From: Nesterenkonia sp. Act20 | Lineage (GTDB): Bacteria; Actinomycetota; Actinomycetes; Actinomycetales; Micrococcaceae | Assembly (NCBI RefSeq): GCF_019173455.1 | Contig: NZ_JADPQH010000001.1 | Span: 62,001 to 126,000, forward strand | Length of the DNA: 64,000 bases | Direction of reading: 5' to 3' | In this document: one piece after another, positions 15,368-63,148 of the stretch | Numbering within the stretch: the first letter of the stretch is position 1 | Layout of the letters: each line of letters opens with the position of its first letter | The notes under the pieces: generated by a model | What the model was told of the DNA's origin: nothing | What the model saw: only the letters and a program-made list of their open reading frames with translations | Database searches by the model: none | Made by a program: the position numbers and the translations under genes

Positions 15368-15394
15368 GCCAGTCCTCTGAAAAGTTCAGCAGTG

Positions 15395-15440
15395 AAGAGC
15401 GGGCCCGGTCTCCATCATGGAGACCGGGCCCGCTCTTTCT
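15395..15440 (+). terminator. Strong terminator closing the atp operon
   Basis: Two perfectly complementary 21-base arms (15395-15415 and 15417-15437) are separated by one base, giving about an 18-pair stem with core GAGCGGGCCCGGTC, followed by TTCT. It lies between convergent atpC and nucS and can work in both directions. Confidence 0.85.
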
Positions 15441-50201: not shown

Positions 50202-50258
50202 TCCAGGGCCTCGGCGCATGAGACCGTTGCCGGATCATGCTCCGCTTCACATATGACT

Positions 50259-50293
50259 CGATCGGGGACGTTCTTCACGGACGTCCCCGATCG
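50259..50293 (+). terminator. Inverted repeat between clpP2 and clpX
   Basis: CGATCGGGGACGT and ACGTCCCCGATCG are perfect 13-base arms around a nine-base loop. TGTCAGGG follows, so there is no T-run. It could partly end the clpP1P2 mRNA, be a processing site, or be an operator for clpX. Confidence 0.5.
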
Positions 50294-50357
50294 TGTCAGG
50301 GCCCTGAAGTACCCTAGATACGAATCACACATCAGGTCTTGAGGGGATTGCACATCC

Positions 50358-58805: not shown

Positions 58806-59414
58806 GTGGGTCCAGAATCGCACGCGGACGCTGAACGCATACGGCCGGGGCAGGCAGCTGCCCAGCAGCCGCTGTTCAGCGACGGCCTGCCCGAGCTGGA
58901 CGAGGAACTTGGATACCGTGGACCCGTGGCCTGCGCCGCGGCCGGCATCACGTACCGTCAGCTGGACTACTGGGCCCGGACCAAACTGGTGCAGCCCTCC
59001 ATGCGCAACGCCGCCGGATCCGGCTCGGCGCGCCTCTACTCTTTCCGCGATGTGCTGGTGCTCAAGGTGGTCAAGCGCCTCCTCGACACCGGCGTCTCGC
59101 TGCAGCAGATCCGTACCGCCATCGAGCACCTTCGAGAGCGCGGCGTGGATGACTTGGCACAGATCACTCTGATGTCCGACGGCGCCTCGGTGTACGAATG
59201 CACCTCCGCCGACGAGGTCATCGACCTCGTGCAGGGCGGTCAGGGCGTGTTCGGCATCGCGGTGGGCCGCGTCTGGCGCGAGGTCGAAGGAAGCCTGGCC
59301 GAGCTCCCGCGTGAGCGGACCGAGCCGGAGCCGTCGGCGCTGACCGGCGAAGCGGCCGTGGCAGAGGACGAGCTCGCGCAGCTGCGCGCCCGCCGTCGCT
59401 CACAAGCCTCCTGA
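58806..59414 (+). CDS. MerR-family transcriptional regulator
   Basis: 202 residues with a MerR DNA-binding domain from about residue 36 (ACAAAGITYRQLDYWARTKLVQPS, YSFRDVLVLKVVKRLLDTGVSLQQIRTAIEHL). The C-terminal half (DDLAQITLMSDGASVYECTSADEVIDLV) has no recognised ligand domain. GTG start after AGGAAGG. The 183-bp upstream region contains TAGAGT (58662-58667) and an inverted repeat GGGTT-N5-AACCC (58760-58774) that could be its operator. Last gene of the garA cluster. Confidence 0.9.
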   Translation: MGPESHADAERIRPGQAAAQQPLFSDGLPELDEELGYRGPVACAAAGITYRQLDYWARTKLVQPSMRNAAGSGSARLYSFRDVLVLKVVKRLLDTGVSLQQIRTAIEHLRERGVDDLAQITLMSDGASVYECTSADEVIDLVQGGQGVFGIAVGRVWREVEGSLAELPRERTEPEPSALTGEAAVAEDELAQLRARRRSQAS

Positions 59415-59423
59415 GCAGCCTCA

Positions 59424-59535
59424 CCCACCTACACCGCGAGGGGTGAACCCTCCCACCTACGCGTTGAGGGGCGGATTCTCCGGGCATCTGAGGCCGAAGT
59501 AGCCCCAGAATACTCGTAGAATCCGCCCCTCAACG
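59424..59535. repeat. Palindromic intergenic element with three related motif copies
   Basis: Two perfect 18-base arms (CGTTGAGGGGCGGATTCT at 59462-59479 and its complement at 59518-59535) flank a 38-base spacer. Upstream, CCCACCTACACCGCGAGGGG (from 59424) resembles the sequence leading into the left arm (CCCACCTACGCGTTGAGGGG, from 59452). The element fills the gap between convergent merR and parA-like genes and may act as a bidirectional terminator. Its internal copies suggest a dispersed repeat family. Confidence 0.75.
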
Positions 59536-59552
59536 GGTGTGGGGTGGGGGAG

Positions 59553-60338
59553 TCAGAGCAGCTGTTTGAGCAGCTGGTCGAAGGACTTCGCGAGATCCCT
59601 GACCTGATCGCCGGGCCACTGGTGCGCCGGATACGCTGCCCCCTGGATCTGCTGCCAGAACGGGTTCTCCTCCAGCACCGGGAGCATGAGCTTCTCCTTA
59701 TAGAGCCGCTCCATCTCCAGCAGCCGATACTCGTGCTCGGTGGAGTCCGCGCGAGCGCGGTTGACCACGACGCCGGCGGACTTCAGCTGCGGAGCGTACT
59801 CGTTGGAGAACATCCGGATGGCGCGCATGGTCCGCTCGGTTCCGGCCACCGAGAACAGGCTCGGTTCGGCCACCAGCAGCACACCGTTCGACGCCGCCCA
59901 GCCGATCCGAGTCAGCCCGGCCAGAGAGGGCGGGCAGTCCACGAGGATCAGGTCGTAGCCGGTCACTCCATCGAGCAGGGTGCGCAGCCGGCGCATGTCC
60001 CGCGGACGAATGTCTGGGCGGTCGAAGGTGGCGGAGAGTGCGGAGCCCACGACCACGTCGAGCTTCGCCGTGGAGCGCCGCTCCTCGGGCAGCAGGTCCA
60101 CCCAGCCGGAGCGCACCACGTGCTCGCTGAGCGTGGCGCGCTTGGCGTCACGCAGCAGCTGCCCCGCCTCGGTGCCGCTGCCGCGCTTCACCGCCAGACC
60201 CGTGGTGGAGTCCGCATGGGGGTCAAGGTCGACGACGAGGGTCCGCACCCCCTGTTGGAGGGCGGCCGAAGCCAGGCCCATGGTGACCGAGGTCTTACCG
60301 ACCCCGCCTTTCAGGCTGGAAACGCTCAAGATCTGCAC
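59553..60338 (-). CDS. ParA/MinD-like ATPase
   Basis: 261 residues: deviant Walker A SLKGGVGKTSV (about 7-17), switch I DLDPHADSTTGL, switch II LILVDCPPSLAGL. Orphan ParA-type ATPases position chromosomes, protein clusters or polar complexes; no parB is beside it, so the cargo is unknown. The start is placed at the GTG 60338 because TATGAT (complement of 60346-60351) is exactly seven bases upstream and the protein then begins MQILSVSSLKGG. Confidence 0.85.
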   Translation of the reverse strand: MQILSVSSLKGGVGKTSVTMGLASAALQQGVRTLVVDLDPHADSTTGLAVKRGSGTEAGQLLRDAKRATLSEHVVRSGWVDLLPEERRSTAKLDVVVGSALSATFDRPDIRPRDMRRLRTLLDGVTGYDLILVDCPPSLAGLTRIGWAASNGVLLVAEPSLFSVAGTERTMRAIRMFSNEYAPQLKSAGVVVNRARADSTEHEYRLLEMERLYKEKLMLPVLEENPFWQQIQGAAYPAHQWPGDQVRDLAKSFDQLLKQLL

Positions 60339-60398
60339 GGTACCCATCATAGGGATGATCGGCACAGGAACTCATTCCGGCGCTCCGCGCGGCGAGGC

Positions 60399-63101: not shown

Positions 63102-63148
63102 GCATGAGAACGCCGGTGGGGGCAATGCCCTCACCGGCGTTCTCATGC
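63102..63148. terminator. Bidirectional terminator between convergent genes
   Basis: Two 22-base arms (63102-63123 and 63127-63148, one G-T pair, core GAGAACGCCGGTG) close on AAT. It lies between the DsbA-fold gene and the SDR gene and can serve both. Confidence 0.8.

Follow-up and report, generated by a model that had tools for sequence, protein, structure and literature searches.

The window analysed here is a 64,000-nt stretch of the genome of Nesterenkonia sp. Act20, and near its right end a perfect inverted repeat lies between two genes that, according to an ad hoc gene caller, converge on it. One is a MerR-like gene (58806-59414, + strand) that ends 47 nt before the element; the other is a gene for a ParA/Soj-like ATPase (59553-60365, - strand) that ends 17 nt from it and has a match at E <= 1e-60 in 29 of 30 genomes of the genus. 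Both were named by eye. The first-pass annotation correctly described arms of 18 nt without mismatch (59462-59479 and 59518-59535), a gap of 38 nt and convergent neighbours. It overlooked that the 38-nt interior is itself quasi-symmetric, which makes the unit a 74-bp dyad of two 37-nt halves (59462-59535). From an alignment of the copies (A1) and the divergence of orthologs, we delimited a left half-site of ~23 nt (59462-59484, + strand; family consensus CGTTGAGSGGCGGATTCTCCGAG) and an inverted right half-site (59513-59535, - strand). Between the two lies a spacer (59485-59512) whose length is nearly constant and whose sequence, judged by the divergence of positions 22-37, is approximately neutral. 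The third related copy previously noted upstream of the left arm is indeed there, as a degenerate extra half-site unit of 28 nt (59424-59451, + strand) with 71% identity to 59452-59479, and partial units of this kind were seen by eye beside several other copies. On the other side, a G-rich flank (59536-59550, + strand) is partly complementary to the C-rich left flank at 59448-59461 (inverted pair I1).

The window copy is the sole 18/18 dyad with a spacer of 8-60 nt in the 64 kb, and five dyads in the window reach 16/18, compared with 0, 0, 1, 0 and 1 in five 6-mer-block shuffles. The RNA of positions 59424-59555 has a folding energy of -79.5 kcal/mol, where shuffled sequences average -52.3 (z -6.8). 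Searching both strands of 59300-59750 for an intrinsic terminator (a GC-rich stem, a short loop and a T-run) identified no site, and an Rfam search with the element returned sub-threshold matches only, nearly all of them to microRNA hairpins. The element may nevertheless affect transcript ends. Elsewhere in the window, three compact palindromes with 9-nt loops (15394-15438, 50254-50298 and 63103-63147) resemble ordinary bidirectional terminators.

We compared the interval between the parA-like and merR-like genes (59415-59552 in the window) across 29 loci, of which one could not be parsed, leaving 28 genomes. By eye, the element is present in the window's own genome (G000), G016 and G023, half of it is left in G019, and it has apparently been deleted in G011. 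An ordinary-looking palindromic terminator occupies the interval in 11 of the 28 genomes, among them G021, G022, G012 and G018, which carry the family elsewhere (by eye; L129-L157).

Dispersal of the element and constraint on its half-sites

Searching the whole of G000 with CGTTGAGGGGCGGATTCT, and allowing up to three mismatches, produced 48 matches, compared with 3 when the sequence was reversed as a control. From the 48 we derived 25 copies in which both arms are recognisable about 38 nt apart; isolated single arms (L014, L021 and L022) and satellites (L010 2120 and L024 2083) were left out of the copy counts. The first-pass annotation had proposed a dispersed, intergenic, palindromic repeat family, and had named a single genomic copy or the absence of the arms from relatives as evidence to the contrary. 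With 25 copies in this genome and relatives that carry the family, the proposal is borne out. Its description of the family as REP-like is useful as an analogy only, since the unit is 74 bp rather than 20-50 nt, has no unpaired GTAG or CGTC tag (its CGTT end sits within the stem), and is associated with a gene that is no RAYT. A position between convergent genes applies to 10 of the 25 copies, the remainder lying between tandem (12) or divergent (3) genes by the ad hoc gene caller, which also places the start of many copies 10-50 nt 3' of a stop codon. The neighbouring genes appear, by eye, to be mostly ordinary housekeeping genes. One copy (L030 2043-2116; G000 C2:673142) lies between genes named by eye as those for ribosomal proteins L1 and L10, as do copies in G016 and G023; in other bacteria this interval is a place of leader regulation. 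The length of the core is 74 in 77 of 84 sites scored with a position weight matrix in four genomes, one of the 84 being a low-scoring satellite that was later dropped.

Copies of the element occupy orthologous positions in related species. All 25 copies in G000 could be paired with a copy in G016 (24 via both flanking genes), 16 with a copy in G021 (11 via both flanking genes), and 13 with a copy in G023 (11 via both flanking genes), 13 of the 16 G023 places having entered the test. Divergence from G000 was measured on ortholog pairs without a length difference (23 pairs for G016, 15 for G021 and 10 for G023). Positions 5-21 of the half-sites differ by 4.9%, 13.5% and 11.8% in the three species, the looser positions 1-3 by 13.8%, 21.1% and 31.7%, and the inner positions 22-37 of each half by 20.0%, 38.8% and 41.2%, compared with 22.6%, 39.8% and 33.8% at four-fold sites of the flanking genes; the corresponding figures for the flanks of the element are inflated by indels. 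Relative to four-fold synonymous sites, divergence at the half-sites is thus slower by a factor of three to five. Together with the core length, these values indicate that the half-sites are constrained and that the inner part, although almost invariant in length, changes in sequence at about the neutral rate. Among the element copies we found neither recent insertions nor target duplications, and no clean empty site; the one G016-specific copy that could be aligned looks like a loss in G000. The half of the chromosome nearer dnaA holds few of the copies in G021 (3 of 18 on C1) and G023 (3 of 16 on C1), with distances taken by hand and counts that are not independent, since many of the positions are orthologous.

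Constraint on two inverted half-sites could reflect either a hairpin or a dyad bound by protein. In alignment A1, taken in the correct register, 68.4% of arm cells pair, compared with 69.5% in shuffled arms, and within each of G000, G016, G021 and G023 taken singly, the halves of a given copy resemble each other no more closely than halves drawn from separate copies do. Double changes in ortholog pairs are at most slightly above independence, as judged from the counts with no statistical test (for example, in the half-sites of G000 and G016, 6 against an expected 4.6; in the inner part of G000 and G021, 45 against an expected 36.9). Lack of arm co-variation in the single group I genomes suggests that each half-site is maintained rather than the hairpin, as would be the case for a protein-bound dyad. 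We therefore reject selection on the hairpin as the main constraint in the group I lineage, a rejection that applies to this lineage and is provisional. When the four group I genomes are pooled, the outer 21 positions co-vary (z 3.4), a value that the mixing of genomes can cause. In G003 the arms co-vary with z about 5, and in G042 they do so partly, with z about 3 for the outer 21. Given these values the hairpin may matter too, and in G003 either pairing or arm-to-arm correction is at work as well.

A strict pattern scan of GTDB genomes returned 10 loci, all in Nesterenkonia records. Model R1 gave 32-54 strand matches in each of 9 of the 30 genus genomes and weak full-length matches in G009 and G024, and model R2 brought out copies built alike but with different half-sites in G003, G008, G024 and G042, with relics in G009. 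By the two models combined, 14 of the 30 genus genomes carry the family and 16 have no multi-copy family. One or two weak R2 matches occur in each of 7 of these 16 (E 8e-4 to 4e-3) and in each of 12 genomes outside the genus, the E range with the genus ones included being 8e-4 to 0.0093. We had considered a species-restricted family (9 of 39 relatives by BLAST; 9 of 30 by R1), which proved too narrow a description once R2 had found the diverged subfamilies, several of which start with CGTC or CATC. Of 40 copies from other lineages, 10 have, no more than two genes away, a gene that flanks a group I site as well, mostly around the yyaL/S9-peptidase region, and the other 30 have no gene at that distance in common with the group I sites compared. 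So few common places across subfamilies suggest that the sets were mostly placed after the lineages parted, or were differently lost.

A family-wide pattern built on the CRTCGANTGG end has matches in 26 of 395 genomes, and its reversed control has matches in 23, with one or two in each; single and double matches are accordingly at control level. Three to 20 matches occur in 11 genomes, the maximum in any control genome being two. Four genomes (G002, G095, G180 and G196, the last three outside Nesterenkonia) each have three or four palindromes with CRTCGANTGG ends and inner sequences of their own.

A nuclease-like gene bracketed by the palindromes

Two copies of the element enclose a gene of roughly 290-340 aa in lineages I-IV. 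PADLOC AbiEi profiles matched all three of the encoded proteins tested (E 1.2e-10, 1.5e-5 and 1.2e-8), and Pfam AbiEi_1 matched one of five bracketed proteins below its cut-off (E 0.088). All five matched PF18741 (MTES_1575) at E 2.3e-6 to 0.0088, under the curated cut-off, and three of the five matched PF04480 (DUF559), likewise under the cut-off (best 19.7 bits against 20.6). MTES_1575_REase is a nuclease domain of the Vsr fold, according to the account of the family in PMC3710099. NCBIfam gave no match for the bracketed proteins, and the five tested against Pfam matched neither a Y1 transposase family nor any other transposase family. No AbiEii toxin gene was found between the brackets, which enclose a single predicted gene in L015, L088, L111, L208, L219, L228 and L159. 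A single-sequence AlphaFold2 model of the partner protein had a pLDDT of 31, and a PDB sequence search with it returned nothing credible.

Of 147 genomes searched with profile A4, 10 have a match at E <= 3.6e-107, and each of these is among the 14 element carriers; the 16 other genus genomes have weaker paralogs only (best 4.8e-88) or nothing, and a match of any strength to the gene type was found in 126 of the 147. The linked gene is full-length in 9 of the 14 carriers and gone, truncated or fragmentary in the other 5: in G021 (L111; C1:1796762) the bracketed gene is without the stretch bearing the conserved C-terminal nuclease motifs, in G019 it is a fragment, in G023 two element copies 281 bp apart have an apparent gene remnant between them, and in G022 and G009 profile A4 found no linked gene. 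Half-sites still diverge more slowly than four-fold sites in comparisons with two of these five. Arm complementarity does not clearly decay after gene loss (means of 19.0-21.0 against 19.4-21.9), the G022 mean being biased upward because it covers 9 of about 17 copies, chosen from the better matches.

To assess bracketing we examined 450-nt flanks and required a dyad of at least 15/18 on both sides of the gene. The loci comprised the linked genes, 40 further Micrococcaceae paralog loci (20 picked by hand from profile matches and 20 as returned) and 29 of 30 loci from a second bacterial family, L356 having been left out. Dyads of this strength bracket 10 of 10 linked genes, 21 of the 40 further Micrococcaceae loci and 25 of the 29 loci of the second family, making 56 of 79 in all; none of the 64 control genes is bracketed in this way. 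Lowering the cut to 14/18 gave 10, 29 and 26 loci, respectively, and 6 of 64 controls, and a left-right flank similarity of at least 18 was reached by 9, 26 and 26 loci and by no control. A previous run on 350-nt flanks, which the 450-nt test supersedes, had found bracketing at 26 of 50 loci and at none of 50 controls. The palindromes that bracket paralogs differ in sequence from the element of the linked gene. Two paralogs of the nuclease-family gene are present in G000 itself, L269 (C1:1563306) and L270 (C2:155500), the latter with similar flanks (similarity 36.5) and a different palindrome.

Solo copies resemble the bracketing copies of their own lineage. Of 109 solo copies, 103 are nearest to a bracketing copy of the same lineage (77 of 77 in lineage I, 8 of 10 in II, 6 of 10 in III and 12 of 12 in IV). 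Protein and palindrome distances are correlated (Mantel r 0.207, with 0 of 2000 permutations as high), but part of this correlation is trivially expected, the bracketing copies being inherited along with the gene. We compared 16 palindromes with CRTCGANTGG ends with the palindromes that bracket paralogs. Six score at least 38 with a bracket from their own genome (three from G009, two from G042 and one from G003), and for two others the score with a G023 bracket is 35.5. Every one of the 16 lies above the highest score in shuffles, 13.0, which is a weak control here since the searched end is common to all of them by selection.

Six plasmid or phage records have a match to P0001, and we read five of these (four plasmid records and one phage-labelled fragment), leaving out Tsukamurella. 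Dyads of 14/18 or better stand on either side of two Arthrobacter genes. Another Arthrobacter gene and the phage-labelled fragment each have similar flanks and a single strong dyad, and the Nonomuraea record has neither similar flanks nor strong dyads. The five plasmid relatives are unannotated or are labelled hypothetical or DUF559. No relative was found in viral contigs. In a record labelled Bacteriophage sp., from human faeces (L369; MT837503.1), a relative of the gene adjoins an 18/18 palindrome whose end is of the TCGAGTGG type.

A proposed two-part system and its rivals

We propose, with a probability of roughly 0.6, that the window feature is a solo copy belonging to a two-part system, which consists of an AbiEi-like/Vsr-like gene bracketed by palindromes and of dispersed solo palindromes. 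That gene and palindrome are true partners we hold with considerable confidence. Proteins of the AbiEi type bind 23-bp inverted repeats, as reported in the part of the AbiE literature drawn on here (PMC7319586), and from the sequences we think it fairly probable that the AbiEi-like part of the partner protein binds the half-sites. Each ~23-bp half-site would be bound by one AbiEi-like part, with two monomers on the inverted half-sites, and the nuclease parts would then meet over a spacer whose length is fixed and whose sequence is immaterial. Such an arrangement fits the pattern of divergence, in which the half-sites and the length of the spacer are kept and its sequence is free. We further infer that cutting or nicking at the spacer, together with host repair, might lead to the spread or renewal of copies, and that recombination between the two bracketing copies might delete the gene and leave a solo scar. 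Spread of the copies by nuclease action is the more tentative part of this proposal, and we put it at somewhat less than an even chance. More broadly, the odds seem to us even that there is a class of such units in Micrococcales, selfish or domesticated, in which an AbiEi-Vsr-like gene sits inside its own ~70-bp palindromes and its protein would bind these via two inverted ~23-bp half-sites, with the spacing of a FokI-type dimer, and disperse them along the chromosome, protein and half-site co-diverging.

Several observations weigh against the two-part system. Neither a recent insertion nor an empty site was found, the half-sites remain constrained in comparisons with species that have lost the gene, arm complementarity shows no clear decay, and the nuclease-domain matches of the five proteins tested stay under the Pfam cut-offs. 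The 25 targets in the genome would call for a safeguard against the host's own active nuclease, and in lineage III the nearest bracketing copy is of the same lineage for only 6 of 10 solo copies.

We weighed three other explanations. The element could be a bidirectional terminator or an mRNA 3'-end hairpin, alike among copies through shared ancestry, with bracketing that merely insulates the nuclease gene. This reading would account for the 22 of 25 copies with at least one neighbour ending towards them, for the great stability of the hairpin, for the ordinary-looking terminators that replace the element in the parA/merR interval of 11 genomes, and for the arm co-variation in G003. We nonetheless consider it unlikely: the region is without a T-run site, no single group I genome shows arm co-variation, a fixed spacer length combined with lineage-specific half-site sequences is unexpected for a stem, and at least one copy (C1 678k, right flank) adjoins what by eye is an ordinary-looking terminator.

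A chromosome-organisation site following a logic like that of matS, or a site for some other host DNA-binding protein, carried by the nuclease gene but independent of it, would explain why positions are fixed over the group I species, why half-sites still evolve slowly in comparisons with species that lost the gene and why few copies in G021 and G023 are origin-proximal. It leaves unexplained the bracketing of a gene family over two bacterial families and the change of the whole set of half-sites, together with the bracketing copies, between lineages; with 30 of 40 copies in other lineages lying away from the group I places compared, and 16 of 30 genus genomes without a multi-copy family by R1 and R2, we regard it as distinctly unlikely. 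An ordinary MITE or REP moved by a conventional transposase encoded elsewhere, its copies alike through recent ancestry, would likewise be dispersed, intergenic and palindromic, with several lineage-specific families in mostly different places. We judge this highly improbable, given that group I copies are orthologous across species with a four-fold-site divergence of 23-40%, that by eye no target duplication lies beside the 25 aligned copies, that the gene between two copies matches no transposase family, and that G000 contains no isolated arm pair (arms within 3 mismatches) enclosing a longer element.

We know of no system that pairs a protein of this AbiEi/Vsr-like type with dispersed palindromes, and we found no description of palindrome-bracketed nuclease genes in the open PubMed Central literature. 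Free-standing Vsr-like homing endonucleases resemble the two-part system in that a Vsr-like nuclease gene is tied to a specific long site. In the present case the gene is bracketed by two sites instead of lying inside one, and cutting and homing are putative. Like the AbiE type IV toxin-antitoxin system, whose AbiEi proteins recognise 23-bp inverted repeats in the account cited above (PMC7319586), the partner protein has an AbiEi-like N-terminal part; unlike it, there is no AbiEii gene between the brackets, a putative Vsr-like nuclease domain takes its place, and the sites are dispersed rather than confined to the gene's own promoter. Elements of the IS200/IS605 group and the PATEs of Haloquadratum also have palindromes near their ends and gene-less derivatives; PATE palindromes resemble those of the IS605 type and some PATEs are transposons minus the transposase, as set out in the relevant part of PMC3119063. 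Between the brackets that we read there is, in contrast, no IS605-type transposase gene.

REPs, as characterised in the portions of PMC8266576 and PMC3733652 that concern them, are palindromes of 20-50 nt with a GTAG tag, served by an HUH tyrosine transposase that acts on single-stranded REP. The organisation described here is like that of REPtrons in those accounts (PMC8266576, PMC3733652): a gene is bordered by palindromes, cognate palindromes lie scattered between genes and at 3' ends, the repeats vary in step with the gene from group to group, and movement of the gene itself is not observed. It is unlike them in that the element is 73-74 bp long, with two ~23-nt half-sites around a fixed spacer and no unpaired GTAG in the 25-copy alignment, and in that the repeats enclose no RAYT (HUH Y1); the bracketed proteins are AbiEi-like, with below-cut-off matches to MTES_1575/DUF559 for the Vsr-like part. 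CGTC-tagged REPs (Di Nocera 2013), which the corresponding part of PMC3733652 reports without a dedicated transposase, share a CGTC-like end with our palindromes. They have stems of 8-9 bp with an unpaired tag and occur mostly in Alphaproteobacteria, whereas the CRTC/CGTT end of the present element, from Actinomycetota, lies inside a long stem, the perfect 18-nt stem including the end motif. The system would be new in its enzyme and, if organisation is weighed over enzyme, would count as a variant of the REPtron; the unit class to which we give even odds would, if real, amount to an analogue of the REPtron with an unrelated enzyme.

The gene type is common in relatives, and the matched palindromes that flank many of its members, in some cases with dispersed copies as well, give each protein a predicted DNA target legible from its flanks. 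If the proposal is true, orphan genes now labelled AbiEi or DUF559 would gain such a target, and pairs of binding domain and half-site would be available from nature for studies of specificity. The two-part system would also add a nuclease-based counterpart to REP/RAYT, for which the mechanism of dispersal is still described as open in the part of PMC8266576 that addresses it.
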